Below, one piece after another: positions 24,309-50,910 of a stretch of DNA of 62,000 nt. Numbering within the stretch: position 1 is the first letter of the stretch; each line of letters opens with the position of its first letter. The notes beneath the pieces were generated by a model. It did not search any database. It was given only the letters and a program-made list of their open reading frames with translations, and had not been told where the DNA came from. Origin of the DNA: Membranipora membranacea (lineage: Eukaryota; Bryozoa; Gymnolaemata; Cheilostomatida; Membraniporidae); assembly GCA_914767715.1 (NCBI GenBank), contig OU612067.1:20434162-20496161 (forward strand), in the 5' to 3' direction. A program made the position numbers and the translations under genes.

Positions 24309-24446
24309 CATTCAGGTAGGGTTTTCAGACCACACCTCCAGATATGCAGCTCTTTTAGAGATCTGAGATTAGATAACTCATCGGGTAATGTGAGGCCCAC
24401 ATTCCCTGATACATCAAGCTTCTCTAGGCTTGTTAGGGAGCCGATC
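24309..24446 (-). CDS. LRR exon A (two repeats)
   Basis: A 138-nt exon, phase 2 on both sides, acceptor TTTACAG, donor GTGAGT. The first repeat is IGSLTSLEKLDVSGNVGLTL, then PDELSNLRSLKEL and HIWRCGLKTLPEW. The backbone Leu residues and the PDELSNLRSLKEL core are identical to exons B and C. Differences fall at the x positions of the LRR strands. Exon A differs from exon B at 10 of 138 bases, nine of them amino-acid changing. Confidence 0.88.
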
Positions 24447-25001
24447 CTGTAAAGAATAAACTCATGTCATGCAGGAAAATTTACAAATTTACTCAATTAC
24501 AGATATTTGTTCACTACACCTCGATTATTCTGTCTATGCTTTTGCTGATGTGCATTGATGTCATCTGATTTGGTCTAATTATGATTGTATTGACAGAATT
24601 TATATTTCAGAATTTTAGAATCAAAACATCAGAGCAGCACCAACAACACACAAAATAGGTAATGAATTCATCAATTTAAACACGAAAAAACAAATTCTGT
24701 GCGCACCCAGTGATGCATTTTTGGAGTAACTTGAGAAAAAGATTGTTAGATTTTTACAACATGAAAAATTAATTACAATGTGCCTCATAGTAATCTCCAC
24801 TCCATACTCTAACTCTCTCTTGCTTTTCGTATCATTGATAAGTTCTCACGCCATAAAGATCGCCATTAGGTTATCTGTTTGTGGCGGGGGGGGGGGGGAG
24901 AAGATGGAGATAGCTGACATGTTTTTTTCATTTTCTCTTAATCTTCTTGTTATTTAACTGATGAAGTCTATAAATTAATTTGTCTTCCACATCACACTTA
25001 C

Positions 25002-25034
25002 CGCTTGAGCTGATCACTGTCTGGTATATCTATC
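25002..25034 (-). pseudogene. Remnant of the upstream exon, copy in unit A
   Basis: It keeps the donor GTAAGTGTG and the coding end IPDSDQLKR, matching the exon end at 61840 onward. Beyond it the R1 repeat begins abruptly at about 25035 and an in-frame TAG occurs, so the exon is cut off. The same junction is found at about 51496. Confidence 0.7.
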
Positions 25035-26345
25035 TAACTAGTATGTCAAGTAAGGGTTACAAAGGGCACAAATATAATGCAACCGCATGTACACACATCA
25101 TGCCATGTTTCATATTCTTTCTTTATAATATAAATGTGATATATCGCTTTTTAAATCTTTTTAATATTGTATTGGTGATCATGTCCAATAGTTATTCACA
25201 GTTGAAACCTCCTAAATATTTGACATTGAGTCGCAGTGACCTCTGGAAGTTTATTTTGGGGCAAAAGTGCCCTTTTATAAATTGAGCCCTCTGTGCTTTG
25301 TTTTTGAGGTATTTGATTAGTTTATGCTTTCATCATATAGAGGAGGCATGGCACTATCAGAAGGAGTGACATTTTAGTGAAACTTTATGCTTTTAGGTCT
25401 CCTGTCTTCGTGTCTTGAAATTGATTTTTGCAATAGTCATATGGCCATTTCTGACCCCTCATTACATGCGACCCCAATAATGCAGAAACTAAAAGTCAGT
25501 GTACCATTCTGGTCTTTTACTGTCACTTCCATCAATAATATTACCAGCTTACAGATCCTGGTTGTCACAACTGTAACAGATAATAACCAAAATTTTCACT
25601 AATTACGGTCAAAATTTTCGAGCCAAAATTCAGAAATCAGGAAGATGTCAGTCAAATTTATTGTCAGCATGATGAACAGCGGGAGATTGTCTCAACTTTG
25701 ATCTAAGCGAGTATTGATTATGGCTTTCAATCATGAGATAGTTGGACTTTTGTGGCTAAACTAGCTTTATTAGGTCCAAAACATGCACTCCTCTCCAGCC
25801 AAAAACTGAAAATAGGTTAAACAACATCTTATACACACCAGCTTCCAATAAAGTAGAGAGTATATCTAAGGTTTTGATCGTGGCGTTTGATGATAAGTTC
25901 AGCAGTTATGGTAACTTACTGCATTATTTTGCCCGATGCTGCCTATATGTTTTCAATGTATTTTAGTTAATGTACAATTAATGAAGTGAGAAACTTGCGG
26001 TTTAAAAAAATTTGAGATATCAGACATAAGTCAGACTACTAGCTACAAGTCTGTGAAGGAATTTTTTGAGGTGGGACAAGTAGTTCCTGAGAAACTGATG
26101 TGATGAGATGATGCATTTCTCTGCAGCCCATCCTTACTTTATTTGCCCCTTGTTATCTTAAACATCTTATATTGATACAATCTGTATTGATAGTTTTCAT
26201 TTTTCTTAGAGTTAACGGAGAACAAAAATAAATGTTGCTTTACAGTACTGTGAAATCCTCACCATGCAACTAATTTTTGATGCATAATAATATCGAATCA
26301 TATTCCTGGTCACCCAGGCAGCCTACAATACATTTGTGTATCTCA
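25035..26345. repeat. Duplicated block R1, second copy
   Basis: Copy of 6465-7755. Its left end replaces the body of the upstream exon, and its right end runs into the SINE copy and a short piece of the next block. No gene. Confidence 0.75.
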
Positions 26346-26412
26346 TGCCATAGGTTTCAAAAACTGAGACCGGTATGACAAACCAACTGCGTCCTACCAA
26401 CTAGCTTGGTGG
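26346..26412 (-). mobile_element. tRNA-Asp-like SINE head, copy 2
   Basis: Same structure as 9467-9533, including the anticodon loop TTGTCAT. It was probably carried along by segmental duplication, as the flanks match too. Confidence 0.6.
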
Positions 26413-26559
26413 GTAGAGTTTTGTAATTTTCCCTGTACAAATATTGCTTAACTTTATCATAAGTAACTGCCTGACTAGAAAATACATGTTACATGATCAA
26501 GTGACAGCGGAGCTAAGAATATTAAAAATGTAAGTATAACTCATGGCTAAACAAAGGAG

Positions 26560-28117
26560 TAACAGTCCCCTGCTACTCCTTGGCCAGCCAAAAAATGGCA
26601 GATCTCCCCTCATCTAGGGTGCAGCCTTCTCCCCCGTTCACTCACACTGGACTGGATGTTTTTGGCCCTTTCATGGTCCAGGACTACAGGAAACAGCTGA
26701 AGAGGTATGGCCTGATATTTACATGCATGGCAAGTAGGGCTGTCCATCTCGAAGTCTTGGTCGATCTCACCACTGACTGCTTCATCAATGGAATGAGGAA
26801 CTTCCTGGCTATCCGGGCACCAGTAAAAGTGTTCTATTCGGACATAGATACAAACTTCGTTGGTGCCGATAATGAGCTCCAGAAACGATTAGATGTACTG
26901 TCCACACAAGAGCTGAAGAAATTTCTGGAATCTCATCACAGCACCTTCAGCTTCAACGTTCCGTATGTTAGTCACATGGGAGGAGCATGGGAACGCTTTA
27001 TCCGTACAGTTAGGAATGTGCTGCATGGTATTCTTTGCGAGAAGAAGTCTACTTGGCTGGATTCATCAAGCTTACTTACATTAATGTAAGAATGCATGTA
27101 CATAATCAACTCGAGGGCTCTTACTACTCAACAACTCTGCAAAAACTCATCCAGCGAGCCTCTCCCTCTGACACCAAATAATCTACTAAGTCTACATCCG
27201 CCACCAGGAAAGTTTGAGGAACCAGACATCTACAGCAGAAAGCGATGGAGAAGAATACAGTATTTGGCGGAGCAGTTCTGGTGTAGATGGAAGCTGGAGT
27301 ATTTACAAACACTTCAAACCAGATCCAAGTGGAATGAGAAAAAACAAAACAGAAAGGTGACGTGGTACTCCTGAAGGACGAGGATACACCAAGATGTGAA
27401 TGGAGACTTGCCAGAATCCTCAACGGTGTAGAGAGCCCAGACAGCCTGGTAAGGAAGGTGGAGCTGAAGACTTCGTCAGGGCAAGTGTACCAGCACCCTA
27501 TCCACAATCTGACACTACTCGTACCCAGCCAAACTAAAAGTTGATTGGAAAACCGGAGGGTTCACAGTGGACGTATAGCTGCGGGGAGTTGTGCGCTTGT
27601 TTCTGGAATGCTTTGCATGCGTTTACCACCCCTGGCAAACTTATCATCATTCACCCTCATTGCATATCTATTCATCTAGTTTGTGTGTGTGCTGTTTCCT
27701 AATAAGGGTTAATACCATGACCATATTTGGGGAACAGCGCATACTGGCACATCATCTCCACATCATAATTTTGGGGCGTAGTCATACAAGCAGTGCTTGG
27801 GGCCAGGTTGTCTAGCTTTGAATGTGAGATTATGTTTTTTGTACTCAAATCAGAGTGACACAGATGGAAAGGTATGTTTGCAATGATTATTTATCTGTTA
27901 TACTTAATATGCTATTACACATTTACGATTTATTCGATGCACCTTTTACATATTATCTATTTACCAATTGTTATCTTTCTGTCATCACAAAGTGATTGAA
28001 CCTTGAATTGATTTCTCAAAGTAATTGAACTGTTATTTGATTTCAGTTTTACGAGCAAATATACACCTCAACACGTAAATCCTGTCACAAATCACTCGAG
28101 TGCAGAAACTAGTTAAG
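26560..28117 (+). mobile_element. BEL/Pao retrotransposon remnant, copy 2
   Basis: Longer than copy 1. The frame 26580-27089 carries the integrase: PFTHTGLDVFGPF, then MASRAVHLEVLVDLTTDCFI, FYSDIDTNFVGADNEL and SHMGGAWERFIRTVRN. That covers the D, D, E catalytic pattern of the DDE fold. The frame then breaks at the same TTAATGTAAGAATG as in copy 1. The C-terminal pieces follow at 27096-27374 and 27362-27544. The 3' non-coding part (27545-28117) is shared with copy 1. It starts just upstream of the integrase, and gag-pol 5' regions are absent. Confidence 0.85.
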
Positions 28118-28124
28118 CGTGCTG

Positions 28125-28490
28125 ATGTGTGGGTTTCTCAACTGTATTTATATTTAGCTCTTAATTTCTCAAGAATACAAATTGCTCTCAATAGTGTTGG
28201 GTCAAGTACAGTAATTTAATCATTTCGACCTGAAATAATTCCTATCGGGACACTATGCCATTAGAGTGTAAATTACATCATTCTTATCATATTGAAAACT
28301 GTTCTCGGCCAAATATATGATTGGACTGGATACATAGGATTCTGAACACAACAGCGTTTTCTTAGCCTTATCACAAGACTGGGCAGACTTTAAAAAACAG
28401 GCTCACAAAACTCACCACCCCATTTTCAGAAAATTTAAGTTTTTAACACTAAACTCAATAAAAAAAAACAACTTTATGACGCTTTCAAAG
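28125..28490. repeat. Diverged copy of LRR-unit intron, exon lost
   Basis: This resembles 23127-23500 and its relatives (GTGTGGGTTTCT, then ATACAAATTGCT) but at clearly lower identity. No LRR exon follows; sequence related to 16970-17080 begins near 28500. Confidence 0.6.
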
Positions 28491-28802
28491 TACATTCCCT
28501 GATTATAAGTAGAGCTTTTTATTGATTTTGGATGCCGACTTTGGATCTGATGGCGAGGGAGAACAAATACAAGGACCCAAGGGATTTCAAATTAAACAAT
28601 TATAAGACGTTGTGGAGCCTAAGAATGTTGTATCTTTCACTGGACAGGACTGGTGTATAAAAATTTTAATAAAAATAGATAGTCATTTATTTTAAACTCA
28701 TTTCACTTGATATGGTTTAGATGAATGATTTATGGTTTTTTAGATTTTTAGAATTTAGATTTTTAGAAGAATGAATATGGTTTAGATGGTTTAGAAAATG
28801 GT

Positions 28803-28943
28803 AAAATATGTCGTTGAGAACTTTCTCGATTTCAGCAAAGCTTTCGACTGTAAGCTAAACACATTCAATATTAATGGTTTATCACTTCAGATTATCAAAT
28901 CGTTCCTCAAAAGTCATCATCAGTTTGTCTCTTTGAAAGGTAT
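28803..28943 (+). mobile_element. RT fragment of a second LINE family
   Basis: The plus strand reads VVENFLDFSKAFDCKLNTFN and then GLSLQIIKSFLKSHHQFVSL. This is reverse transcriptase motif A (LDFSKAFD) and the region after it. It lies opposite in strand to LINE copy B and ends exactly where that copy's homology starts, so the two elements abut. It could belong to the same family as the element at 60770-61410. Confidence 0.75.
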
Positions 28944-31584
28944 ATCTGATCTAATATTTGTACAGTAAAAATCACATAAGCCAGTTGAGGACATTCCCAA
29001 TTTTTGGAGTTGTCTCATTAAAAATAACGTCTTAAAGTTGCATCTTTTGATTATAGTATTAACATGTGGAATAAAAGTCAAGTGGTCATCAATGTAGATG
29101 CCTAAAAACTTCATCACCTGGGAGGGATTGATGCTACTATTTTCATAAAATACTGCATTTCGGTGTTCTTGTAAATAATTCAAATAAATATTCATAATGA
29201 CAGTCTTGTCAGCATTTAGGAGCATGTGATTGGTTGCTGACCATAGAGCGGTCTGTTGAATGGCTGGCACAATTGATCGACTATCAGGGTCGCTAACTCT
29301 TAAATAGAAAGTGCTATCATCTGCATACTTGACAGTTTTGAACTGGGGAACAAAGAGATTGTTAATGTATATAGGCCACAATATTGGCCCGAGTTTTGTG
29401 CCCTGTGGAGCTCCAACATTGATGTCAATGTAATTGGAAGAGGAGCTGTTGAATTTCAGAAACTGCTTGCGTATTTTCAGGAAGTCTGCGATGAGTCTGA
29501 TAATCTGAGGGTGGAAGTTGTGGTTGTTCATTTTCTGCAGTAGGCTACTATTGATGGTTGCAGCCGATCAAAGGCTTTGGAAAAGTCCAAAGACGCTAGC
29601 TGGATATACTTGGTTTGGAGTTTGTCGAGATCTGCTGTTATGTCATCAACAAGCTGGAGTATTGCATCAATGGTGCCTACTTTCTCCTGATATGCATACT
29701 GTGTTGGCTCAATTATTTCCTGCAGATTGCTTCGCATTTTGTTGATCATAATTTGTTCGGCCAGTTTTCCGAGATGGAATAGCAAGGATACAGGCCGATA
29801 ATCTTTGTATTTGCTAGGCTGTTTGGTTTTAGGCAGTGGTTTTACTTCTGTACTCTTCAAGATATCCGGATATTCCCCACAGTCTAGCATTGTGTTGATT
29901 ATGTGATGTACCGGAATACACAGGTCTTCACGTCCGTCTTTTGACACCCAGGATGGAGAATCTAGAGTGTTACATGCCTTGGTATGGTCGATTTTACTGA
30001 GCGTGTGTTGTAGAGGAGTATGTGACGATGGTGTGTCAGGTAGGGATTCTTGTCTTGCTTCTCCCCCAACGCTCTTGAAGCATGTATTGAGATTTTTGGC
30101 TACATCACAGTCAGATAGGCATTTATCTTCTATGCATGTTGTTGGATTGGTTGAATGGCTGTTTTGGTTGTTGGTTGTGAGTTTTTATACAGTTGCCCAC
30201 CACTTTTTAGCATTTTTGTTGTCATTCACCTGTTTGCCTACAAACTTCTTCTTGCTAGTTCTAATCATTTGCTAAACCGTCGACTTGAGCTGCTTGTAAC
30301 CAGAACTGCCTTTGTTGTATGCTTTGTCCCTGGCTGCGATGGTTTTCTCAATGTCTGCAGTTATCCAGGGCGGCTTGTCCTGTAGCTGTTTTTTAATCTG
30401 GTACTGGACAATGTTTATCAAGGAGCTGATCGATAGATTCGTGCAGATTAACAGCCTCTTGGTGAACATTTTGCTCGTTGAGAACATTACTCCAATCATG
30501 TTGTGATAATGATACCAGAAACTCATTCTTGCGACCTAGAGTGATGAGGCGTATTTTTACTGGGATATAACGTTTGCGTTTTGCTGGCTGTCCTTTCACG
30601 AGTACACAGCAGTGCTCATTGTCGCCGAGTGGAGATAACTTTTCAGCTGCATTGTATTCCTCTACATCGGTTAACACAAGGTCTAGTTTGTTGTTTTCTC
30701 GAGTAGGGAACCAGTAACCAGGTCATGTAGGTTGAACTGTTCCAATAGATCTTCCACAGGTAATTTATTAAAATGACCATTTATGAGGAATCTTGGCGTT
30801 TGGTACTTGTTATGCAATTTCAGTAGTGTAGTCGACAGGTAGTGTTGTGTTTTTGACTGCTCAACATTAGGTGGATGGTACTAACAGCCATCTATAATAG
30901 GAGAGTAGGATTTGATGTTTATTTTTGCCCGGAGTGCAGAGAAAGTGCTGGATGTTTCTGAGGATATAGTTGTTGCATCGAGATGGTCATGCAAGAAAAT
31001 CCCTACCGCCTCCTATTTCTATTTTTCCTGTGGCAAAAGTGGGTTTTATATCCATTGATGTTAACAGTTTGCTGTTTGTCATCGTTAAGCCATGTCTCTG
31101 TTAGACAAATAATGCTTGGTTTGTGTATTTCAGCATAAGCCTCCAATTCTGCAAGTTTCCAAGTGTTTAACGACCTGCAATTAGTATAGAGCAGGCTGGG
31201 TGTGTGGGTGACATTTTTTTTCTTTATTAGCGGTACTGGAATGTTGTTGTTATTAAGTGACCTGCAGTTTATGAATCGAACAACAGGATGGCTCTGTGAG
31301 GTTTTCTTAGCACTCGGTGCAGGTATTGGATCTGGTGTCGATTGTTGAGTGATATGTCTAGTTTTATGTTTGCCAGCTCTGCAGCCTTGCTTAGTTTTCT
31401 TTGAGTGTAATCCATTCTTAGTGCCTAATCCTTTAATCGCACTAGTTTGAGATATAATGTGTAAGATCTGTTTGTTGATAATTTGAAATCCATTGCTGTC
31501 GCAGTTTTTCAAGTTGAGTATATCTGCTCTGCTATAGCTAGTACGATTTTCCGACATATTACATGAGTGGATCGGCAGCGTCAA
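28944..31584 (-). mobile_element. LINE copy B (endonuclease to RT, broken frames)
   Basis: Endonuclease from 31584 (PVVRFINCRSL, LTETWLNDD), linker near 30677-30272, RT near 29947-28920. RT shows LDFSKAFDRLQ (motif A), GAPQGTKLGPILW (motif B), YADDSTFY (motif C, the catalytic Asp pair) and FLGIYIDDHLTFIPH. The endonuclease Asp codon is changed to His as in A and C. Stops and frameshifts break it in at least four places. The 3' end is cut at 28944, next to the RT fragment of another family. Confidence 0.88.
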
Positions 31585-31749
31585 TATCTATTCGCACGTA
31601 TGTTTTCCGAGTTATAGTCCAAGATTTTAACAGCGTAATCAACTAAATTAAAAGAGCACCAGTTAGGTGCAGCCTACCCCGGCGCAAACTAACTAACTAA
31701 TGTGAACATGTCAACTAACTTGGCCCAACATATTGTACCTCTAAGTGGG

Positions 31750-31968
31750 TCAGATCAATCCAGTATAAGCTCTTATTGCTGTTAATACCAGAATACTGCA
31801 TTGCGGGATACTAAATGCAATGTCATCTATCCTATATCCAGCAAAAGGAGGGCAAGAAAGTAAATTCTCCAATTCTGACAAATGATCATAAATATGTAAT
31901 GCTCCATATAAAATACAGATTTCTTTACAACTCTGTCCATTCACAGTCCATGTCAAGGGGTTTCTCAT
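31750..31968 (-). other. Small conserved open frame, copy in unit B
   Basis: Counterpart of 22151-22405; 72 aa, with SCPPFAGYRIDDIAFSIPQC. It is open although several residues differ. Confidence 0.3.
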
Positions 31969-33161
31969 GTCAAAGTAAGACGACTCAAGATTTTATATTT
32001 TTTCTTCGGTTTTGATCTTAGAGTGAAAAGCGAACATGTCATCTTAAATAAAATGCGCTAGAATTAGTAATAAGTTCAACACAAGAAATGTCAACTAGAA
32101 CTAGTATGATAGAAATCAATCAATAAGGGAGGGAAGGGAATATATATTGACCATTATTATTTGCTTCCATTCCATGCTCTGCTATAAAAGAGTGAAAGTT
32201 TACTTCTCTCCCAAACCACATTTTTATTGCATTTTTTGTTGTTGCATGAATCTAACTCACAGTTGTTGCAAAAAAAAACACATCTGTGTTTGCTCATATA
32301 TATATATTACAACCAGAGACATGTAACATTGACCCATGCTTTTATTTATTTTTTATAGAATGTTTGCTACTCCAAATTTACAATGTTTCTTCATAGCAGA
32401 ATACCAAAAAGATGTTACCGATAACAATTTCTCTTAATTAAGATAATAATTAAGTGCAGAATTACAACCACAGGAATGCATTTCTAGGGCGGGGGCGTTC
32501 ATAATATTTTGATTCCATTATGAAAACTCTCGCCGAAAATTTCACAGAAATTCAACAATTGCCAACAATTGATTATTAAGTAATGCAAAGTTTTCAAAAT
32601 CTGTAACATTTGTCATAAATTTGAATTAATTTGTAAAAAGCTCATACTAAGTATTATCTGTAACAAACTTTTGTGTACATTAAATTCAGAGCATTTAATT
32701 CAGAGTACTGAAGTTTGGGTTTCTACGTTATTTTATTTATATTACCTCTTGATTCCAAGAACACAAATTGCTAGCAATTGCGTTGGATCTGTTACCGCAG
32801 TTATTTCACTTTCAAACTTCAAGGTAACTTTATATTTCGGACAGTTTTTAAAGAGGTTACGAGTATCCATAAGACATGCACGCAAAATGCACCTTACCTA
32901 ACCAGTAAATTAAACTTTTTTACACCAAAATTAGTCACGAAAAGGTCTAAATGTAATACTATCACTGGAACACGGACGCCTGGAATAAAGGCAACTCAGA
33001 GTCACATTAATATTTTACCGCATCATTCAGCAGTTACAACTTCAGGGTCAGATTCTATATAATTATTTATAGCAGAAAATAACACTTGAAGTACCTAAAA
33101 TTCACAAAATAGTTACTGTTCATCAGAAGCAGCATTGGTATATGAAGGGAAGTAAACTCAC

Positions 33162-33299
33162 CATTCAGGTAAGGTTTTCAGAACACACCCCCTGATATCC
33201 AGCTCTTTTAGAGATCTGAGATTAGATAACTCATCGGGTAATGTGAGGTCCTCATTCCATGATACAACAAGCTTCTCTAGGCTTGTTAGGGAGCTGATC
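33162..33299 (-). CDS. LRR exon B (two repeats)
   Basis: 138 nt, phase 2 on both sides, acceptor TTTACAG, donor GTGAGT. It encodes ISSLTSLEKLVVSWNEDLTL, then PDELSNLRSLKEL and DIRGCVLKTLPEW. Compared with exon A, the changed residues are D to V, G to W, V to E, G to D, H to D, W to R, R to G and G to V, plus G to S at the start. All are outside the Leu backbone. About 4% of the adjacent 90 intron bases differ, against 7% of the exon. Confidence 0.88.
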
Positions 33300-33489
33300 C
33301 TGTAAACAATAAGCTCATATCATGCAGGAAAATTTACAAATTTACTCAATAACAGATATATTTTGTTCACTACATCTCTATTATTCGGTCTACGCTTTTG
33401 CTGATGTGCATTGATATCATCTGATCTGGGTCTAATTATGATTGTGTTATCATAATTTATTTTTCGGAATCACATCCCTGGAGCAGCAC

Positions 33490-33945
33490 CATAGAGTTAT
33501 TATATACTCTAGAGTGGACAATGCAGTGCTAAAAGCGTCCTACTTAATTATTGCGAAATCCATGACACAACGCAATCTGGTTGTGCATGGCCAGTGCCTG
33601 TATCATATAACTTATCATTGAGTATATGCGTATTGGGCATGACAATTTAGATTTCTAGAGCGCATATATCCATTTTTTCAGAAAATTTTTCATGGGACAC
33701 CATGTAGATCACTTGCAGGTATTTTCACTTTCAATTCCATGAGGCAACGAAAACTGGTTGTGCGTGGATAGTGCATGAATCATTGACTTTATCATTAAAA
33801 ATATTAGAATTGGACATACAAATTAAGTTTATGGATCGAGCACTTATAGCCATTTTATCAAAGAATTTCACATGTAACACTATTTACCTCACCATCACCT
33901 GCAGGTATTTTCTCTTCCGGTCAGTTTGACATTTGACATTTGACA
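33490..33945. mobile_element. Half copy of the long-inverted-repeat element
   Basis: This starts with the terminus CATAGAGTTATTATATACTC shared with the element at 41287 and carries two of its subterminal repeats (around TCTGGTTGTGCATGG and TGGTTGTGCGTGG). The other end is missing; it stops at a short TTGACATTTGACA repeat where the R1-like block 33945 onward begins. Confidence 0.7.
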
Positions 33946-35912
33946 TATCTTAAACCTCTTATATTGATTCAATCTGTATTGATAGTTTTCATTTTTTTTT
34001 GAGTTAATGGCGAACAAAAATAAATGTTGCTTTACAGTACTGTGAAATCCTCACCATCCAATTAATTTTTGATGCATAATAATATTGAGTCATATTCCTG
34101 GTCATCCAGGCAGCCTACAATACTTCTGTGTATTTTATCTCTTTAGATGCAGCCACGCCACTCGCACCAAAGAGAATCATAGCAGGTTACACTTATAATG
34201 TAATTATTGTGTGTACATATATATGAATAATATATTTATATGTTCAACACAGCATAAATAACATCAATGTCATAAATAATAATATCAGCTATTGTTTTTC
34301 CTACTCCCTGGTTGCTCAAAAATGTATTTTATCACAAGCTGCATATTTACTGTTGCAGGACAACCTGACTTGCTGCTTTTTGGGAGTTGTTTGTATATGT
34401 AATTATTCTTAGGCCTAGGGTCTACACGGAATCAAGGGGGAGGATGAGATACACATGGCACTCACATAGCTATTGTTACTGGCGCCACATTTATTTATTT
34501 GGATATGCCATAGGTTTCAAAAACTGAGACCGGTATGACAAACCAACTGCATCCTACCAACTGAGCTTGGTGAGAAGAGTTTTGTGATTTTCCCTATACA
34601 AATATTACATAACTTTATCATAACTAACTGCCTGACTAGAAAATACGTGTTACATGATCAAGTGACAGTGGAGCTCAGAATATTGAAAAAATGTTAGAAT
34701 AACTCATGGCTAAACCAAGGAGTGACAGTCCCCTGTTACTCCTTGGCTAAACCAAGACTTGGTAGTTTATTGAGAGTTTTACTTTGTTGAGCTAAGCAAT
34801 GGTAATTGTAGTGGCCTTAAACAACTTCTCATTGATGGCCATTGATTAATAGCAGATTGCACCTTCTGCATGGGGAAAAAGACAAAATATAATTCGGATG
34901 ATTATTCAGCCAGAATTCTTGTGAAACATTTCTTCCATCAGGTACTCAAACTTAGCTAAAAGAGAATACCACATAGCAGTTTCCTGTTCCTGTTATTATT
35001 TAGCCTGTGCTCTATAATTTTTACAGCAAAGTCTTGGAACCTCCCCTAAACTGAAGTGTTACCCAGCTTAGAGTCAGCAACTACTTTGAGTTTTGCATCG
35101 CGTAATGCACAAAGCTGATGCAGCCCAGCACATTATTTGCTACCCATTAATGCATTGCTGCGAAACTTTAGTTGCCCTTTAATAATGGCACTGATAGGAA
35201 AGAAGACTGACACACTGACTGGGTGACTCAAATCATTGAACATTGGAATGTGACTGATTCTCAAACATCATCTGTCAAATCTAAATTATATCATTTCTCT
35301 TCTGGAACATCATAATAGGCAATATATACCCATATCTGATGCTATACTCCCTCTTCCTCCTCCAGCTGTTGACAAAATTGAGTCGTGATGTTATAGTGAA
35401 CACACCTTTACCATGGGCGTTAATTCCGATAAATCTGACCCACCTCTTTTCACCACAGACACAACTCGCGATGTCGCAATTTCGCGAACTTGTTCGCAAT
35501 ATTTGACAATTTTATTGTTTTTCACCCATTGAATCCAATTTATACCCAGAAATGGGTATTTTATATGGAAAGAGCATGAAAAACTACCCTTAGAAGATGT
35601 TTTAAAGATGAAAATAAAATAAAAAATTTTTTTTAATTTTTTGTCAAAAAAAAAAAAATATAATAAATTTTTTTAACCCTCGAGGAGTCGTGAGTCGTGA
35701 GTGGTAATATACGCCCATGACCTTTATTTTCACAAATGCTAATAAGTCATGGGTACGTATTCGACGGAGCCCGGTTTGACAGCCAGGGATTAAGTACTGT
35801 GTACCAGCAACAAAAGGGGCCAGCATGAAAATGTTGAAAACAAGCTTGGCGGCCGGGCAGTGATGCATGTTACGATGAGAGGCTTAGAGACGAGATTTAT
35901 AGCGCATGAAGG
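33945..35912. repeat. Duplicated blocks R1/R2, third copy
   Basis: 33945-34370 matches 7560-8000; 34385-34700 matches 9345-9655; about 34700-34800 and 35190-35912 match 10381-10895. Extra sequence at about 34810-35180 has no counterpart. It contains SINE copy 3 (34506-34572) and the empty site of the MITE. Confidence 0.75.
34506..34572 (-). mobile_element. tRNA-Asp-like SINE head, copy 3
   Basis: Same element as at 9467 and 26346, inherited with the duplicated block. Confidence 0.6.
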
Positions 35913-36830: not shown

Positions 36831-36869
36831 CTCTGTTGGCTGAATGTGTCTAAAGTTTTTAGACAATTT

Positions 36870-38756: not shown

Positions 38757-41286
38757 CAAGCATGGACGCAAGTTTAGGGACCTACAGGGTCTGTGGGTGG
38801 GGGAAAAAATGCACAGACAAAGCTGATAGAATGCTGCTTGTTCGTGATTTTTGGATCTTAATATACCTGGGCAAAAAATAACCCCTGCGGTCTCTATTAT
38901 GAATATCCATGTTCAGCTTCTTTACTAGCATTCAGATTTTGGGAAAAAACTTTTCCAAAGAGTGCGTTGGTGTTTCTTTGCTGTTTTATCTTTTGGGAAT
39001 AATGATAGTGTCGTCTTGATCTCTGTTGATAAATCAGTTACATTCAATTTACCACCCTGACAAGCTTTCACTGAAGTTCGGTTAGCATTTTTTTCGGGAT
39101 AAAACCCTAGTTTGGCAAGATCAGGGGCATCTTGAGGTTTCTTCATTACACCCACAATCGGCTGCTTTGTCTGCCTTACCCGGTGGCTAATAATATATGA
39201 ACACAATAGGCCTATATTTATCATTTTTCTCAAATCTTTCCAATTTATTGGTACCACCAAAAGTGGTTTCTATGCTGCTGCTTTCCAGATTTATTTCAGC
39301 GCTATTGACTGCCCGGTGACTTGGTGTGATGCAACCAGTTCGACAGCACTGGGATATGGTGATAGAGGCTATGATAGTTGTATGATATGACGTAATGCTA
39401 GGCAGTTGGGGCTGATAACAAGGCCACGAACAGACAATTGAGGCGAGATATCAACACTTACAAGGGAAAACCACCAAGCTATGTTGTATATCATGTATTG
39501 CTACTTCCATCAAAGTCTAGATCATTTGGAAGCTTGGTCCAATTTTTGCATACATTGGCCTGCTATGTACTTGGATGCTGGTAGCTGATCTTTTAAGCAA
39601 GACCTGTATAGCTTGCTAAATTGAGTTGAAAGGCTTTCATTTTAAAGTCCCCTTTTTTCCGTTGTTTACAAAATATTTAGGGGCCAGCACATAAATCCAC
39701 GATAGCATAAGCATAAGTGCTGTTTATTCTCTTTACAAGCGAACATAGTGTTATAGCATGCAGAGTGCTCAAGTTTTACCGATTAGGTGATCTTCCCAAC
39801 AAAGTTTAAATCATTTGGAAGCTTTGTCCAATTGTTGTTTTCATTGACCTGCTATGAATTTGGATTTTAGTAGGTAAGCTGTTAAGCAAGACCTGTATAG
39901 CTTGCTAAACATTAGACTAAATTGGATTGAGGGTTTTCGATTTAAAGGTAGAACTTAACAAAACAGCTCATGAACGCTATGAAGCTGGCGCAAAGATCTC
40001 TGTAAAATAAGTGCTGTGTATTCGCTTCACAAACAAACCTAGTGTTTTAGCTTGCAGAGCCCTACAGGTTTACTCTTTAACAATTGAACTATGGAATGGC
40101 ACTGTTTCCCTCTTTTTCCGCTGCATACAAAAATATATAGGGGAATGCTCAGAAATTCTTGACGTATTCCTGTGTAACTGGACTGGCTCAATTGTGTATG
40201 TCCCCCAACTATCCTGAATATGTGTTGAGCCAACTTTCAAACATGAAAAAGTTGATAGGGTGTGAAAAAAACTGGCCAATTAAAGTTGAGTCACCATTAT
40301 TGCAAACAATTGGATGTAATATTGCTAAAAAGCTTCAGTTTAAGTGATCAGTTTTGACTGAGACTTTATTGTGAAAGCCTTCTGCAAAACATCCAAACAT
40401 AGAGAGATTGATTTAACCAACAATGATCAATGTGGCATATAGCTTGATAAGTACAGTAGCTTGCCAGGTACAAAAGCTTGCCACGTATGTCAGCTTGCCA
40501 GGTGCAAAGTTGGTGCAAAAGGTTGCCATGTCTTACACAAATGTTTTTGTACCATGCTTTTGTACAATCGCCACTAACCATGTATGTTTAAAAGGGCTTC
40601 TGTAGCAAATTTTTATCGTTATTGGCCAGCTCTCATAGGTGGCTGACTTTGACTGCTTTTCATGGCAACGTTTTCCAGTGTTTATGGAATTTTATGCCTA
40701 TTGCGTGATGTTTGTATTCCTTGCAGAAGTACATCATTTAGAAACAATCGTACATGAAATAAATTTGTGCATGGAATGACGTTTGAGAAACTAATTTTGG
40801 GCACATTATGGCAGCGATAGTGAACAATTTCTGCCGTTGATGCAAACTGAAGCGTTTAGCTTAAGTTTTTCAAGCAGAAGTATATATTTGCTTTGCCAAG
40901 ATAGGTCATCATCACAAAACCAGTCCAAAGGCTGAAAAATCAGATAAGTGTTTTGAGTCAGGTTGATTGCTGATAGCATCTGACCCCAGATACAAAAACT
41001 TTGCCGACTGCATTAAGTGTTGAAATGTAATGGAAGACGCAAATGCAGGATGCTCGTCGTTACATGTACCGGGAAAATCTTAATTTTTACTTGTCAATCT
41101 TTTTTTATAATTGGACTCCATATGTTAGTATATTGTTTTAGAATTTGACAGCCAGTGATTTGAATAATTTCTTTTTTTTGGATCAGTACAGATTCCAGGT
41201 AAAGTGCCTATAAGCATAAAATATCGCTTTGGAAAATTAATTTCCTTTCATTACATGCGACTGAGAAGCTGGGCATAGGGTTTCAT
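38757..41286. repeat. Duplicated block R2, second copy (right part)
   Basis: Collinear with 10905-13560, with a deletion near 38860-38875 and an insertion of about 110 bp near 40250-40500. Open frames are not shared. No gene. Confidence 0.75.
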
Positions 41287-43326
41287 CATAGAGTTATTAT
41301 ATACTCTAGAGTGGACAATATGTACAAAGATAGCATCAGTTTTTGTCCTAATCCGAAATCCATGACGCGCCGCAATCTGGTTGTGCATGGCTAGTGCCTG
41401 TATCATATAACTTATCATTGAGAATATAGGTATTGGCCATGGAAATTTGGATTTTAAGAGCGCTTATGGCCATTTTTTTGACAAAAATTTTCATGTGACA
41501 CTATGTGGATCACTTGCAGGTATTTTCACTCGCATCCAGTGGAGATGTTTCTATGTTTCCCATTAAAATAAGCCAAAATCTCAACCGCAAACACATCATT
41601 GTGATGAAATAGAAACTGAAAGGCTAACTCGATTTTTTTCACCGCCACAAAATAAATGAGTGTATATGATGCTGATGTTTTCATTTACAAAAAAACAACC
41701 ATCAGAAAAAATTGCATCACACACCCCCCCCCCCCCCTGTACCGAATGATCTCTTATTTTGAGTATGGTGAGAAATCAGAAATATCTGTAAACTTGAAAA
41801 TGTCACATCGGTGAGAGAGTGAAATTATATCGGCTTTCTCAGTACTAATATTGTCATGTTAATATCAGCCTTGTGGGTAGAATTTTCTGGAAGTTGATAG
41901 AATGCAAAGATGAGTGCAAATAGAAATATTTGGCCAATGATATATATATATAACATTGGTTGAAACATCTTAATTCACATTGTATACTATTAGTACCTAA
42001 AGATGAAATATTAATAAAGTCTATAATTACGCCGTCCGCACTCTTCTCAACTGAAGATTGAAGTTGCAAAGACAAAATATTATGGTGTTATCCATAATGT
42101 GTTGCAACTGATTACTGACTGCCATGTTCATACAATTTTAAGACTGAGTGAGGGAATTTAAGAAAATCTAGAGTCAAGCTGGACAAGTATGATTCTTGAG
42201 TTCACCATTCAGCGACTCAGCCAAAAGGTTTATGCATTGATTTATTTAACCTGCTGTGTTGGCTTGAATGGTTTCGGCAGTCCAAAAACGAGTGGCCACC
42301 CAGGAGAGGGAATTAAGAGCTTTAAATGATATAGCCAAACGAAAACCTGAAAATTTGTCTACGTGTTGTATAATTGGGAGTCATAATACTGGACAGATAA
42401 AATTAAATCAGTGAGTGTGTAACATTTTAGTTGGAGAGACAGGACACAGTTGAACTGGCAGGCAAATGCAGTGGCAAAATCCGGCTAGCCAGGTAATTGT
42501 GATTTTATCGCGATGATATGTTTGCTTTGAGATTTAGGTGTTTAATGGGGATAACACAAATCTTTTTGTCCCCTGACTGCTAAAGAAATCACTTGCAAGT
42601 CATCTTATAGTGTGACATGAAAAGTTTTACAAAAATGTTGCTAAAAGTGCTCTAAAAACGAAAAAGGCAAGCAGCAAACCTTTTCACCTCCAATCACTTT
42701 TCAATAGGCTACTTGTACTCCATGTTATCACAAATAGCGGGAATTGAACAGATAAAGTAAACCGACTGAGTGTGCAACATATAAGTTTGAGAGACAGGAC
42801 ACAGTTAAATGATTGGCAAGTGGCAGGAACCAGCTAGCCCTGTCATTGGGATTTAAGCTCACGGGTTTGCGGTTGATATTTGGCTTATTTTAATGGGAGC
42901 ATAGGAAAAAATTTTTATACTGACTCGGAGATGTTAATGGTGTTACATGTGGAATTCTCTGAAAAAATGGCTACAAATGCTCCATAAACTAAATTTATAT
43001 GTCCAATTCTAAACTTTTCAATGATAAAGTCAATGATTCATGCACTATCCACGCACAACCAGATTTCGTTGCATCATGGAATTGAAAGTGAAGATACCTG
43101 CAAGTGATCCACATGGTGTCACATGAAATTTTTTCCAAAAACATGGCTATAAGCACTCTAAAAATCTAAATTCCCATGCCCATTATGTGTATTCTCAATG
43201 ACAGGTTATATGATACAGTCACTAGCCATGCACAACCAGATTGCGCTGTGTCATGGATTTCGCAATAATTAAGTAGGCCGTTTTTAGCACTGCATTGTCC
43301 GCTCTAGAGTATATAATAACTTTATG
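41287..43326. mobile_element. 2.0-kb DNA element with long inverted repeats
   Basis: The ends are inverted copies of each other for about 240 bp, starting CATARAGTTATTATATACTC. The flanks are GGTTTCAT (41279-41286) and GGCTTCAT (43327-43334), an 8-bp target duplication with one mismatch. The paralogous block at about 13552-13562 lacks it. Subterminal repeats around TGTGCATGG occur more than once per end, and the middle has its own repeat (GAGAGACAGGACACAGTT twice). No transposase frame; non-autonomous, and the 8-bp duplication would suit a hAT-type helper. Confidence 0.8.
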
Positions 43327-43334
43327 GGCTTCAT

Positions 43335-45770
43335 GCACATACTTTTTTTTTCAATTTTCCCAGTTACAAGGGAGCACAACTACAGATTTGAACTCCTATT
43401 ATAATAATTTTGTCCGGGGTAACGTCTGTATTGTACACATTTTACTGCCTTTCCTGTTTATTTGACAGAAGTGCAGAGATATCTTTGCAGTAAGATGGAC
43501 TATAGCTGATTTGTTATGTCATTCCACTGATGGACCAGGGCAGAAAGCATCGGATATTCCTCCTGGAACTGCACATAGCATGCCGGGCACAAGACAATCA
43601 GCGCTCACAACTAAGCTAAATACTATTCAATGGCTCCCATCATTAACATACTGGATTGTACAATTGAAAAATAAGGTTACATCAACCTCTAGTCATATGC
43701 TTTGAAATGATTCCAGTAGAATACATGCAGCGATTTAAGGGTATATAGGAAATACCCTGCTCAGATTAGCAATTGGGAGCATTTCTTTCGGAACTTGTTC
43801 ATCATGACTCTTGATCATAGATCCCAATCCCTTAATGTCATAGTTGTGAATCAAAATTTGCGGATCATCTCCTTGTGAGATCAAAAGGTTCGATATTACG
43901 TACATGATCATGTTATTTGACAAACAAGTTTCCAACAATGCATGTTTCACAGTGATGAAATTAAAAAGTTGAACACATGCATACAGTCCTTGTCGATCAA
44001 TTTGAAGGATTACGAGTGGTCAATTGTGACATTGAATAAGAAGACAAAATATTTATTTTTACTCTTCACCCAACAAACCCACTTGGGATCTGTTTTGTAC
44101 ATCATGATACTGAACCATGTTCCTTTCACTAGATTGGGCAATTCCCTCCTATTGGTACTGTACTACAAACCAGAGTGCCTGTATTTTGAGGTCAAATTTG
44201 ACAATTCGAAAATATCGACTATTGTTTCTAAGTCGACATTTACATGATAGATCGGGACATTTCATCGCAACAGCATGCAACTGAACTTTCAAACACTCAA
44301 GAGAAGTGACTGACTATGACATCATGTCTATGGTGCCTAACGATGATTCAACAGACAAGGTTGTTTATCTAACAGAATATCTGTTCAAAATTTTGAAACT
44401 TACACCACCTCAAATTGGCTTGTCCGTCTTTCATACTCAGTAAACTTTGGCCCAAAAAAACCATTTAAGCAAAAGGTTTCCCACTCTAGGAAGCTGGTCA
44501 CTTTCCAGTGCGACATAGGTTTTGACTGGCACAATTTGTTGGTGACAAAAGTTGATATAACGAAAATTTATCGAGGCCACTGTGACATAGTGCAAAGTTA
44601 TGGGGGAGAATCGAAAGAAATATCTTCGTTACCACTAAAAATTGCCTGAGATTTTATGGCCGGATTTCCCCCTAGTAAAGTCTCTTTTGACACCATTTGG
44701 AAGTCAAAGGTTCATTTAAGTGATTTAGAGACTACTACATATCTTGTTTTGAAGGCCGATCATCCCCACGATCGAGAGATCAACAGTTGCGTTTGGAGGC
44801 CAGACTTGAAGCCAGTGACATACAATCACTGAGAATTAATTTGTCACAGCTGGGGTGATCGGTATTCACCAAAATGTCGGCTTCCCATTCCTCGCCAAAA
44901 TACTTTTTCTCGGAGTATTTTTATTCAAAAATGATGACCTGTTACTGAAATGTTTTGATGTGTTGTACAAATAAATACCTGAATCAAATGAAGAAAGTTG
45001 CAGCCCGTTGATTGATTATGCAGCAATAATTGAAATGAGAAAAAATTAACATTTTGCAAAATTGATTTTTTTGATCGAAATTGTTGTATACTTTAGAGTT
45101 GGCCCTCCTTGATTCACAGAACCCCCCCTCCTGATATGCGTGTCTGTAATAGAGCACAGTCCATGTAGACTAGTGTCTAAAAATTTACTTTTTAAGTTTT
45201 GTACGTGATCTTGATTGGCTAACGCACTACATACATATTGAGATGCAAAGGTCATTACCTTCCTTTCATTGCTTTACCTCTGATCAAGTGACAGTGGAGC
45301 TCAGAATATTGAAAAACCCTCCAGCCTCCCCGTTTACCACCCTACATGTCTGTACTCACATTTTGTTTTGTGAAGTTGTAGATAGTGTGGAAAGAGTGTC
45401 ATTGGGACACCATGTGGAGTGAAAGACCCCTATTGAACGATTTGGAGACCAACGCTTATCCTGTTTTGAAGGCCGATCATCCCCACGATCTAGAGATCAA
45501 CAGTTGCGTTTGAAGGCCAATCTTGAAGCCAGTGACATACAATCACTGAGGATTAATTTGTCACAGCTGGGGTGAATCGATATTCACCAAAATTTCGGCG
45601 TCCTATTCTATGCCAAAAAATACTTTTACTCAAATTGTTTTTATTCAAAAATGATGACCTGGTACTGAAATGTTTTGATGTGTTGTACAAATAAATACCT
45701 GAATCAAATGATGAATTTGCAGGCAGTTGATTGATTATGCAGCAATAATTGACATGAGAAAAAACACATG
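43335..45770. repeat. Duplicated block R3, second copy
   Basis: Collinear with 13575-15940, including the internal about 700-bp tandem duplication. No gene. From 45770 to about 46130 the sequence is unremarkable, except that 45960-46060 resembles 18095-18190. Confidence 0.75.
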
Positions 45771-46129
45771 ATCTGTGTTTTTGATATGAAGTTGATTTAT
45801 TTCTTTGCTTTTAGTTCAGCTATCCCGATTTGCCCATCCTGTCAACAGTGTTTTACAGCTCTGTATTTCAAGAGTATGAATCGGTAATCAATGTACAGTG
45901 TTGTAAAAATGAAACAGAACTAAATTTCTGTGTGGGGGAGCTGTGCAGATATGATAATGACAGAAACCAAAACAACTTACATAACTACTGCAGAATTAGC
46001 TAGCTGCCAGACTATTTGTTGCTTTGGTTCTTATAGAAAAGATTAAACTATTTAATGTTTTGATAAAACTTGAATGTTGTTGTTGAGTTGTGTTGTTGAG
46101 TTTGTTTGTAAATTCATAATTATCTTTTG

Positions 46130-49126
46130 AGGTGGGGTAGCATCAATGATAGTACTTGAATGGTTACACTAAAAATTATGTCCAGAGTTATAGTAATTCA
46201 TATAAAAAGTAAAAAAACTGTTATTCCCCTTCTCTGTCCTTGCATTCTTGGGCCTAAAAATAGTATGGCCTCTAGAGGATCTCCTGGAATTATTAAAAAT
46301 AATCCTATCAAGTAACGGATGCGTACAGCTGTTGGCCGCCTTACTAAAATGGGTGGTAGATTGACGTATAATAAAGTCATCGAGTGAAATTATATCAAGC
46401 ATATCCAGCCTGTCACAATGTTGCGCATGAGGGAAAATAATTCGGGTGGCAGTGTCTTGAACATTCTCTAGCTTCGATTTGGTAGTGTCTGACAAAAATT
46501 GATAAAAACCGGCGCACCATAACAGAGAACTGATCTAATATTTGCACAGTAAAAATTACATAAGCAAGTTGAGGACATTCCCAATTTTTTGAGTTGTCTC
46601 ATTAAAAAAAACTAAGAGTTGCATCTTTTGATTATAGTATTAACATGTGGAATAAAAGTCAAGTGGTCATCAATGTAGATGCCTAAAAACTTCATCACCT
46701 GGGAGGGATTGATGCTACTATTTACATAAAATACTGGATTTCGGTGTTCTTATAAATAATTCAAATAAAAATTCATAATGACAGTCTTGTCAGTATTTAG
46801 GAGCATGTGATTGGTTGCTGACCATAGAGCGGTCTGTTGAATGGGTGGCACAATTGATTGACTATCAGGGTCGCTAACTGTTAAATAGAAAGTGCTATCA
46901 TCTGCATACTTGACAGTTTTGAACTCGGGAACTAAGAGATCGTTAATGTACATAGGCCACAATATTGGCCCGAGGTTTGTGCCCTGTGGAGCTCCAACAT
47001 TGATGTCAATGTATTTGGAAGAGGAGCTGTTGAATTTCACACACTGCTTGCGTATTTTCAGGAAGTCTGCGATAATCTGAGGGTGAAAGTTGTGGTTCTT
47101 CATTTCCTGCAGTACTATGGATGGTTGCAGCCGATCAAAGGCTTTGGAAAAGTTCAATGACGCTAGCTGGATATACTTGGTTTGGAGTTTGTGGAGATCT
47201 GCTGTTATGTGATCAACAAGCTGGAGTATTGCATCAATGGTGCCTACTTTCTCCTGATATGCGTACTGTGTTGGGTCAATTATTTCCTGCAGTTTGCCTC
47301 GCATTTTGTTGATCATAATTTGTTCGGCCAGTTTCCGAGATGGAATAGCAAGGATATAGGCCGATAATCTTTGTATTTGCTAGGCTCTTTGGATTTAGGC
47401 AGTGGTTTTACTTCTGCACTCTTCCAGATATCCGGATACTCCCCACAGTCTAGCATTGTGTTGATCATGTGATGTACCGGTATACACAGGTCATCATGTC
47501 CGTCTTTTGACACCCAGGATGGAGAATCTAGTGTGTTACATGCCTTAGTATGGTCGATTTTACTGAGTGTGTGTTGTAGAGGAGTATGTGACGATGATGT
47601 GTCAAGTAGGGATTTTTGTCTTGCTTCTCCCCAAATGCTCTTGAAGTATGTATTGAGATTTTTGACTACATCACAGTCAGATAGGCATTTATCTTCTACG
47701 CCTGTTGTTGAATTGGTTGAATGGCTGTTTTGGTTGTTGGTTGTGAGTTTTTTATATAGTTGCCCACCACTTTTTAGCATTTTTGTTGTCATTCAGCTGT
47801 TTGCTTACAAACTTCTTCTTGCTAGTTCTAATCATTTGCTAAACCGTCGACTTGAGCTGCTAGTAACCAGAACTGCCTTTGTTGTATGCTTTGTCCCTGG
47901 CTGCAAAGGTTTTCTCAATGTCTGCAGTTATCCAGGGCGGCTTGTCCTGTCGCTGTTTTTTATTCTGGTACAGACAATGTTTGTCAAGGAGCTGATCGAT
48001 AGATTCGTGCAGATTAACAGCCTGTTGGTGAACATTTTGCTCATTGAGAACAGTACTCCAATCATGTTGTGATAATGATACCAGAAACTCATTCTTGCGA
48101 CCGTGAGTGATGAGGCGTATTTTTACTGGGATGTAACGTTTGCATTTTGCTGGCTGTCCTTTCACGAGTACACAGCAGTGATCATTGTCGCCGAGTGGAG
48201 ATAATTTTTCAGCTGCATTGTATTCCTCTACATCGGTAAACACAAGGTCTAGTTTGTTGTTTACTTGAGTAGGGAACCAGTAACCAGGTCATGTAGGTTG
48301 AACTGTTCCAATAGACCTTCCACAGGTAATTTATTAAAATGACCATTTATGAGGAATCTTGACATTGGGTACTTGTTATGCGATTTCAGTAGTGTAGTCG
48401 ACAGGTAGTGTTGTGTTTTTGACTGCTCAACATTAGGTGGATGGTACAAACAGCCAACTATAATAGGAGAGGAGGATTTGATGTTTATTTTTGCCCAGAG
48501 TGCAGATAAAGTGCTGGATGTTTCTGAGGATATAGTTGTTGCATCGGTATGGTCATGCACGAAAATCCCTACCTCCTCCTATTCTATGTGTCCTGTGGTA
48601 AAAGTGGGTTTTATATCCATCGATACTAACAGTTTGCTGTTTGTCATTGTAAAGCCATGTCTCTGTTAGACAAATAATGCTTGGTTTGTGTATTTCAGCA
48701 TAAGCCTCCAATTCCGCAAGTTTCCAAGTGTTTAACGACCTGCAATTAGTATAGAGCAGGCTGGGTGGGGGACATTTATTTTCTTTACTAGCGGTACTGG
48801 AATGTTGTTGTTATTAAGTGACCTGCAGTTTATGTATTGAACAACAGGATGGCTCTGTGAGGTTTTCTTAGCACTCGGACAGGTATCGGATCTGGTCTCG
48901 ATTGTTGAGTGATATGTCTAGTTTTATGTTTGCCAGCTCTGCAGCCTCGCTTAGTTTTCTTTGAGCGTAATCCATTCTTAGTGCCTTATCCTTTAATTGC
49001 ACTAGTTTGAGATATACTTTCTAAGATCTGTTTGTTGATAATTTTAAATCCATTGCTGTTGCAGTTTTTTTAAGTTGAGTATATCTGCTCTGCTATAGCT
49101 AGTACGATTATCCGACATATTATATG
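46130..49126 (-). mobile_element. LINE copy C (most complete at its 3' end)
   Basis: Runs from the endonuclease N-terminus near 49126 through the linker (48243-47860) and RT (47316-46750: LNFSKAFDRLQ, GAPQGTNLGPILW, YADDSTFY). Its C-terminal region ends FRPKNARTEKGNNSFF near 46195, the only copy that preserves this end. Motif A reads NFSKAFD here, so the first catalytic Asp is lost. The endonuclease has INGHFN instead of GDFN and shares the frame break after HDLVTG with copies A and B. Confidence 0.88.
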
Positions 49127-49310
49127 AGTGGATCAGCAATGTCAATATCTATGCGCACGTATGTTTTCAGAGTTATAGTCCAAGATTTTAGCAGCGTAAT
49201 CAACTAAATTCACAGAGCACCAGTTAGGTGCAGCCTACCCCGACGCAAACTAACTAACTAATGTGAACATGTCAACTAACTTGGCCCAACATATTGTACC
49301 TCTAAGTGGA

Positions 49311-49505
49311 TCAGGTCAATCCAGTATAAGCTCTTATTGCTGTTAATACCAGAATACTGCATTGCGGGATACTAAATGGAATGTCATCTATCCTATCTCC
49401 AGCAAAAGAAGGGCCATAAAGTAAATTCTCCAATTCTGACAAATGATCATGAATATGTAATGCTCCATATAATATACAGATTTGTGTACAACTCTGTTCT
49501 TTCAC
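49311..49505 (-). other. Small conserved open frame, copy in unit C
   Basis: Counterpart of 22151-22405, 64 aa, with HIHDHLSELENL and a 1-base insertion that ends it after RAYTGLT. Confidence 0.3.
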
Positions 49506-50772
49506 ATGTCAAGGGTTTTCTCATGTCAAAGTAAGACGACTCATGATTTTATATTTTTTCTTCAATTTTAATCTTAGAGTGAAAAGTGAACATGTCATCT
49601 TTAATAAAATGCGCTAGAATTAGTAATAAGTTCAACACAAGAAATGTCAACTAGAACTATTATGATAGAAATCAATCAATAAGGGAGGGAAGGGAAAATA
49701 TATTGACCATTATTCTTTGCTTCCATGCTCTGCTATAAAAGAGTGAAAGTTTACCTCTCTCCCAAACCACTTTGTTTTTTGTTGCTGCATGAATCTAACT
49801 CACAGTTGTTGCAAAAAAAACACATCTGTCTTTGCTCATATATATATTACCAACCAGAAGCATGTAAATATTTACCCTTGCTTTTATTTTCTTTCTACAG
49901 AATGTTTGCCACTCCAAATTTACAATGTTTCTTCATAGCAGAATACCAAAAAGATGTTAATAATTTCGCTTACTTACGATAATAATTCAGTGCAGAATTA
50001 CAATCACAGGAATGCATTTTTAGGGCGGGGGCGTTCATAATATTTTGATTCCTTTATGAAAGTTATCGCCAAAAATTTCACAGAAATTCAACAATTGCCA
50101 ACAATTGATTTTTAAGTGAATGCAAAGTTTTTAAAATCTGTTACATTTGTTATGAATTTGAATTAATTTGTAAAAAGCTTATACTAAGTATTATCTGTAA
50201 CAAATTTTTGTGTACATTAAATTCAGAGCATTTAATTCAGAGTACTGATATGTGGGTTTCTACGTTATTATATTTATATTATCTCTTGATTCCAAGAACG
50301 CAAATTGCTAGCAATTGCGTTCAATCTGTTACCGCAGTTATTTCATTTTCAAACTTCAAGGTAGCTTTATATTTCGACCTGAAATAATATTTATTATTAT
50401 TATCGGGAAATTGTCTTACTAATCAGAGTGAATCGCTCATCATTCTTGTCATACTGAAGACAGATTTCTGCACACAGTTATACATCACACAACAGGACAG
50501 TTTTTAAAGAGGTTACGAGTATCCATAAAACATGCGTGCAAAATGCACCTTACCTAACCTACCTACCTTTACCTTACCTAACCAGAAAATTAAACTTTTT
50601 TACACTAAAATGAGTCACGAAAAGGTCTAAATGTAATACGATCACTGGAACACGGACGCGGATTCTATATAATTTATTTATAGCAGAAAATACCACTTGA
50701 AGTACTCAAAATTCACAAAATAGTTACTGTTCATCAGAAGCAGCATTGGTATATGAAGGGAAGTAAACTCAC

Positions 50773-50910
50773 CATTTAGGTAAGGTTTTCAGACCACACT
50801 TGCTGATGTTAAGCTCTTTTAGAGATCTGAGATTAGATAACTCATCGGGTGATCTGAGGCCCCTATTCGTGCTTACATCAAGCTTCTCTAGGCTTGTTAG
50901 GGAGCTGATC
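50773..50910 (-). CDS. LRR exon C (two repeats)
   Basis: 138 nt, phase 2 on both sides, acceptor TTTACAG, donor GTGAGT. It encodes ISSLTSLEKLDVSTNRGLRS, then PDELSNLRSLKEL and NISKCGLKTLPKW. It differs from exon A at 18 and from exon B at 19 of 138 bases, clustered in two windows that encode the strand x positions. The intervening core is identical at every base. About 3% of the next 90 intron bases differ from unit A. One Ser differs by all three bases (TCA against AGC). Confidence 0.88.

Follow-up and report, generated by a model that had tools for sequence, protein, structure and literature searches.

Diversification of duplicated leucine-rich-repeat exons in an LRR-Roc-COR(-caspase) gene family of the bryozoan Membranipora membranacea

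The gene in the window

We analyzed a 62,000-nucleotide stretch of DNA (the window) on C3 of the 339.3-Mb Membranipora membranacea assembly tzMemMemb1.1. One minus-strand gene in it encodes, in order, leucine-rich repeats (LRRs), a Roc-COR GTPase and a caspase. Exons C (50773-50910; ISSLTSLEKLDVSTNRGLRSPDELSNLRSLKELNISKCGLKTLPKW), B (33162-33299; ISSLTSLEKLVVSWNEDLTLPDELSNLRSLKELDIRGCVLKTLPEW) and A (24309-24446; IGSLTSLEKLDVSGNVGLTLPDELSNLRSLKELHIWRCGLKTLPEW) are in-frame 138-bp exons of phase 2-2 that carry two LRRs each; C is bounded by a TTTACAG acceptor and a GTGAGT donor, and the splice sites of B and A are intact. Upstream of them, the LRR-like exon P (61840-62000), which is open at the window edge, ends in phase 2 at the splice donor GTAAGTGT and joins exon C in frame. 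Downstream, the diverged exon X (17755-17892) again has 138 bp, two LRRs, phase 2-2 and intact splice sites, and exon Y (3871-5783) carries the final two LRRs and the Roc-COR GTPase, whose Roc part is identified by Pfam and by fold match. Further features of the gene lie on the same strand at 3577-3645 (with a phase-compatible join, and kept in all five close gene copies), 1799-2226 and 1147-1568. As modeled from the sequence, the spliced frame comprises 1181 amino acids with phases that agree at 8 of 8 junctions, and the gene is probably spliced in this way.

The Roc domain of exon Y matches PF08477 at 30 bits (cut-off 27), and its putative COR-A domain matches PF16095 at 23.2 bits, under the cut-off of 35.3. 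An AlphaFold2 model of exon Y (pLDDT 84.3) matches the C. tepidum Roco structure 6hlu (E=3.4e-18) as well as 3dpu, and the COR-only chains 3dpt_A and 3dpt_B were also matched by fold (E=4.2e-9 and 1.7e-8); among solved structures, C. tepidum Roco, LRRK1 and LRRK2 match best. The exon A peptide, with M put for its first I, matches PF00560 at 22.7 bits (cut-off 20.6), and the further LRR exons support an N-terminal LRR region, which is usual, though not universal, in ROCO proteins. The caspase (Peptidase C14) domain scores 55.8 bits (cut-off 21.4) and contains both catalytic-site motifs, SHG and QAC, making it a predicted protease. A Pfam scan of the 647-amino-acid open reading frame (ORF) at E up to 1 listed Roc, COR-A, Ras, MMR_HSR1 and TniB, and neither NACHT nor NB-ARC. 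Among named animal sequences, the matches are MFHAS1-like proteins from two bryozoans, Watersipora (31%) and Bugula (32%). Inside Roc-COR, at about residues 278-295 (W numbering), a block that reads either KKSKP.....SDIKLLKQ or ESKQTCKQISDIENLID divides the five close gene copies into two types, as if a tract had been exchanged.

Diversification of the LRR exons

Exons A, B and C differ from each other at 10 (A-B), 18 (A-C) and 19 (B-C) of 138 positions, exactly as counted in an earlier sequence-only reading, which had proposed that these exons diverge faster than their introns. Its tally for A-B (nine of ten changes alter the amino acid; 9 nonsynonymous, 1 synonymous) was also confirmed, as were the last-strand motifs HIWRC, DIRGC and NISKC and the motif NIRQC in a truncated exon copy at 23665-23727. 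The introns, said to differ by 3-4%, do not follow that figure: pairwise flank differences are 29/484 (6.0%) for A-B, 21/935 (2.2%) for A-C and 18/274 (6.6%) for B-C. The exon excess is consequently strong for A-C (exon 13.0%, 18/138; p=1.9e-7), borderline for B-C (p=0.015) and not seen for A-B, the very pair that had been stressed. Nonsynonymous rates exceed synonymous rates in each pair (dN/dS by NG86: A-B 0.095/0.030, A-C 0.156/0.120, B-C 0.179/0.089), none of them significantly by Fisher's test. Within the window, the claim of faster exons is thus weak and hinges on A-C; it is established as beyond chance only once the nine further intact copies from the genome are included.

The genome contains 12 full-length copies of this exon and five truncated ones; they form two clusters separated by 7.5 Mb and, judged by position, probably belong to five close gene copies. 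Each of the 12 full-length copies keeps its reading frame and both splice sites. Exon divergence exceeds flank divergence in 60 of 66 pairs, with p<0.01 in 23. In the three closest pairs the flanks differ by 0.42-0.50% and the exons by 7-12%, a 16- to 23-fold exon excess: A-e20384 (exon 12/138, flank 10/2393, p=1.7e-10), A-e20370 (16/138, 12/2393, p=4.5e-14) and e20384-e20370 (10/138, 11/2386, p=3.6e-8). Between A and e20370 there are 0 substitutions in the 400 bp upstream and 3 in the 640 bp downstream.

Five duplicated units also contain a truncated copy of the exon's last 63 bp, with the intact exon about 640 bp upstream of it. The one in the window (23665-23727, minus strand) retains the donor, and four more lie elsewhere in the genome. 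The five truncated copies show no substitution and a single 1-bp gap, whereas the intact exons in the same units carry 3 to 9 substitutions over the matching 63 bp. Because the truncated copies are near-identical while the intact exons differ, the units are young and only the intact exon has changed. The truncated copy is probably noncoding; a preceding AG in suitable phase would allow its use as a mini-exon, but the 1-bp gap found in one of the copies argues against this.

LRRs follow the general pattern LxxLxxLxLxxN. From this pattern, but after the three window copies had been seen, we defined codons 7, 8, 10, 12, 13 and 15 and codons 30, 31, 33, 35, 36 and 38 as exposed strand codons. Among the 12 copies, columns with at least three bases make up 12/36 of the strand-codon columns, 0/102 of the remaining exon (p=2e-8) and 4/264 of the near flanks (p=2e-9), and 11/36 persist in the strand codons when copy C is left out. 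A codon model with positive selection fits better than one without (M2a vs M1a, 2dlnL=83.5; omega 24 at 11.5% of codons) and singles out codons 12, 13, 15, 35 and 36. Codon 36 encodes nine different amino acids among the twelve copies, but all twelve have G at its third position. The contrast between strand and framework inside the exon is firm evidence for selection.

The flanks themselves have mixed histories. A and e27973 differ at 29/408 upstream and 3/1098 downstream positions, and A and e20389 at 24/407 and 0/667. Another subfamily offers a parallel: the locus L044 (C3:21805426-21810399) has at least four tandem LRR exons at a spacing of ~294 bp with a like variable-codon pattern. In three of its six pairs the upstream introns differ at only 1-3 of about 150 positions, and these pairs differ at 14-19 of 140 exon positions and 13-30 of about 150 downstream intron positions. 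In these alignments the exons mark switches in flank history, which read as recombination breakpoints. Between A and e20384, moreover, 3 silent exon changes in ~34 silent sites stand against 10/2393 in the flanks (p=6.5e-4), indicating that this exon is older than its flanks. Breakpoints at exons together with this silent excess mean that exon/flank ratios overstate selection and that part of the variety was imported. Targeted conversion, which the sequence-only reading had offered as an alternative, is in part borne out, by exons at flank-genealogy switches and by one very recent pair with excess silent exon change. Two copies have a second motif whose surrounding 18-base words are unique in the assembly; an exact donor was therefore not found. 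P0001, a metagenome protein from the Joint Genome Institute (JGI), agrees exactly with the gene at 20346989 in its LRR end, differs from it at 13 positions elsewhere, and is probably an allele of that gene. If it is, the LRR end is unchanged between two colonies, which argues against rapid individual diversification.

The Roc-COR gene family

The window gene has many relatives. Among 411 candidate Roc-COR matches, 68 were scored, 67 of them without internal stops; a search with the LRR-exon peptide gave 1657 candidates, and all 150 that were scored lack stops. These counts set a lower bound on family size. For the last LRRs of exon Y, the window's subfamily has a ratio of nonsynonymous to synonymous differences per site (pN/pS) of 3.69, subfamily G7 one of 10.2 and G5 one of 1.90, and Roc-COR stays at 0.28-0.51 in all eight subfamilies. 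In the 58 genes of seven subfamilies, the mean number of extra amino-acid states is 10.1 for the 12 strand positions, 0.74 for the other positions of the LRR end and 0.76 for Roc-COR; the corresponding amino-acid differences per codon pair are 0.428, 0.041 and 0.046. The two short strands of the AlphaFold2 model of exon Y, residues 17-19 and 41-43, fall amid these strand positions.

Silent change behaves differently. Among codon pairs that encode the same amino acid, single silent changes occur in 61/1726 (0.035) at strand positions, 251/8216 (0.031) in the other LRR end and 5290/136807 (0.039) in Roc-COR, although this test is biased towards closely related pairs; the same test on the 12 exon copies gave 5/447 in strand codons vs 104/1988. 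Since silent change at strand codons is not raised while amino-acid change is high, the pattern points to selection rather than to a mutation hotspot.

In 47 of the 68 Roc-COR genes, a caspase exon follows downstream within 5 kb, on the same strand. Where the relevant column is covered, the caspase loci retain the catalytic His in 28/28 and the catalytic Cys in 9/9. In a subfamily represented by L027, L028 and L031, many LRRs and Roc-COR share a single intronless open frame (1138-1155 amino acids within the fetched loci).

Explanations, relatives and the duplicated units

We consider it probable (about 0.72) that the window gene belongs to a large germline family of LRR-ROCO(-caspase) sensors whose ligand face is diversifying, resembling the LRR-ROCO exon arrays of brown algae. 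The gene would be one member of a set of cytoplasmic-type LRR-Roc-COR(-caspase) proteins that gained LRRs as symmetric phase-2 exons through tandem duplication, and recombination with breakpoints at exons would spread these exons among gene copies. Selection would favor amino-acid change at the exposed β-strand residues, that is the concave ligand face, and conserve the framework, the GTPase and the caspase. Such diversifying selection, acting on a recognition surface built of LRRs, had been suggested from the window, and the variability of the predicted concave-strand codons, the omega of ~24 and the unraised silent change support it. As for ligand, signaling and an immune role, we infer that a ligand bound to the concave face may switch the Roc-COR module, which would trigger the fused caspase. 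The gene would then be a self-contained non-self sensor and death effector, with pathogen sensing likelier than allorecognition.

Several observations weigh against this interpretation. In 6 of 66 pairs the exon differs no more than its flank, 43 of 66 miss p<0.01, and A-B shows no exon excess (7.2% vs 6.0%, p=0.36). The LRR-end pN/pS is only slightly above 1 in G6 (1.11) and at or below ~1 in four of the eight subfamilies (G2 1.02, G3 0.72, G4 0, G8 0.60). By NG86, pS is raised in strand codons (0.118 vs 0.053 in Roc-COR), which we attribute chiefly to path averaging in codons with several changes. No caspase match was found near 21 of the 68 Roc-COR genes, including all of G6 (11) and all of G7 (9), and one caspase exon carries a stop. 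The caspase-less subfamilies lie at C3 22.8-23.6 Mb and C5 4.1-7.6 Mb (G6, G7) and may carry another effector. Finally, the unchanged LRR end of P0001 provides no diversity between individuals.

Targeted hypermutation of strand codons (AID-like or template-driven, in the germline or the soma) would fit the three changes inside one codon (codons 13 and 15) between copies with flanks 0.5% apart, and the lack of an exact donor in the assembly. It is nonetheless highly improbable: silent change is not raised in either same-amino-acid comparison, the truncated copies in the same intron keep their second motif without a substitution, codon 36 holds its third base, and P0001, probably an allele, does not differ from the gene at 20346989 in its LRR end. 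The mutational mechanism raised by the sequence-only reading is accordingly not supported. If recombination merely imported old variation under relaxed constraint, with no positive selection, one would expect the changeover of flank genealogies at exons and the old exon of A-e20384. Strand codons, however, lie in among framework codons and have the same history behind them, yet multi-state columns number 12/36 in the former and 0/102 in the rest of the exon, and the intact frames and splice sites of all 12 copies and an omega well over 1 make this improbable as well. That tandem repeats are difficult to assemble, and that the deposited assembly is described in PMC10290214 as a single haplotype with incomplete phasing, could suggest an artefact. 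We find this barely credible given a HiFi-based chromosome-scale assembly at 66-fold coverage (as described in PMC10290214), changes that respect codons and splice sites, and an independent JGI metagenome contig, the source of P0001, that shares its LRR end with the gene at 20346989.

A role in allorecognition between colonies instead of pathogen sensing is a minor but real possibility, as bryozoans are colonial and PMC8195603, in the part available, ties cell-death effectors to allo-incompatibility in colonial animals including bryozoans; tens of gene copies in several clusters would rather suit a sensor repertoire than a single compatibility locus. It is rather unlikely that the LRR exon is a recombination hub, with hypervariable cassettes exchanged among hundreds of LRR-ROCO-caspase genes and alternatively combined via equal-phase exons into a repertoire for each lineage or colony, though equal phases would allow alternative splicing. 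Such a hub would be the animal counterpart, separately evolved, of the exon shuffling proposed for brown algae, the organisms this bryozoan lives on.

The closest parallel to a diversifying germline sensor family is the brown-algal LRR-ROCO family (Ectocarpus, Saccharina and others), for which PMC11378527, in the part available, reports tandem phase-2 LRR exons, positively selected concave sites and alternative splicing of LRR exons. The bryozoan genes share its LRR-ROC-COR order, 23-residue repeats, tandem phase-2 LRR exons (C, B, A and X in the window, four in L044) and positive selection at concave-strand sites. They differ in having two LRRs per 138-bp exon (~141 bp in one other subfamily) rather than one per 72-bp exon (PMC11378527), and in belonging to an animal in which most scored copies are followed by a caspase. 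Animal ROCOs (LRRK1/2, MFHAS1-like proteins, those of Trichoplax) have the same LRR-Roc-COR core, but are not known to have the fused C-terminal caspase and intragenic LRR exon copies. Trichoplax has ROCOs with death domains. In the available part of PMC4104024, its ROCOs are fused to CARD, TIR and TPR, and 'caspase' occurs only in 'caspase recruitment domain'. By analogy, the combination of LRR sensor, nucleotide switch, death effector and diversifying selection on a concave face recalls NLRs and plant R proteins (PMC11378527, in part), except that the switch here is Roc-COR and not NACHT or NB-ARC. As in lamprey variable lymphocyte receptors, LRR modules carry the diversity; unlike those, the bryozoan copies are germline, and somatic assembly is without evidence here. 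PMC8195603, again in part, describes LRRs that evolve rapidly and are fused to COR proteins, as well as marine expansions of other systems with death domains. A literature search of partial coverage (ROCO with caspase, bryozoan immune families, Membranipora) returned no paper on such a family in Bryozoa, and a word search of a 2026 review of animal immune diversification found neither ROCO nor bryozoans.

In an animal phylum about whose immunity very little has been written, the sensor reading, if right, would add to NLRs and TLRs a third type of large LRR sensor family that unites the switch and, in many of its copies, a death enzyme within one gene. It would offer an apparently convergent test case for the diversification of germline repertoires. 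The duplicated units, with intact and truncated exon copies of equal age, supply a built-in neutral control, and exon shuffling as a source of immune repertoires becomes testable in an animal, given long-read genome and RNA data.

The units have further features in the window. The end of exon P, donor included (61825-61853), is repeated at 24987-25015 and 51454-51482, 29/29 identical; as the A and C units thus contain exact copies of this end, the duplicated segments start inside exon P. At 60764-61403, foreign sequence has taken the place of the exon interior and of part of the upstream intron in a fourth unit (unit homology ends at 60770 and restarts at 61405). The foreign insert holds part of a plus-strand ORF (60744-61298; no Pfam match), and the exon is kept only at its donor edge. 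Repeated reverse-transcriptase-bearing elements at 20424-23268, 28946-32839, 46530-50376 and 56270-60440 form part of the duplicated units, and RVT_1 is present in the two of their ORFs that were tested.
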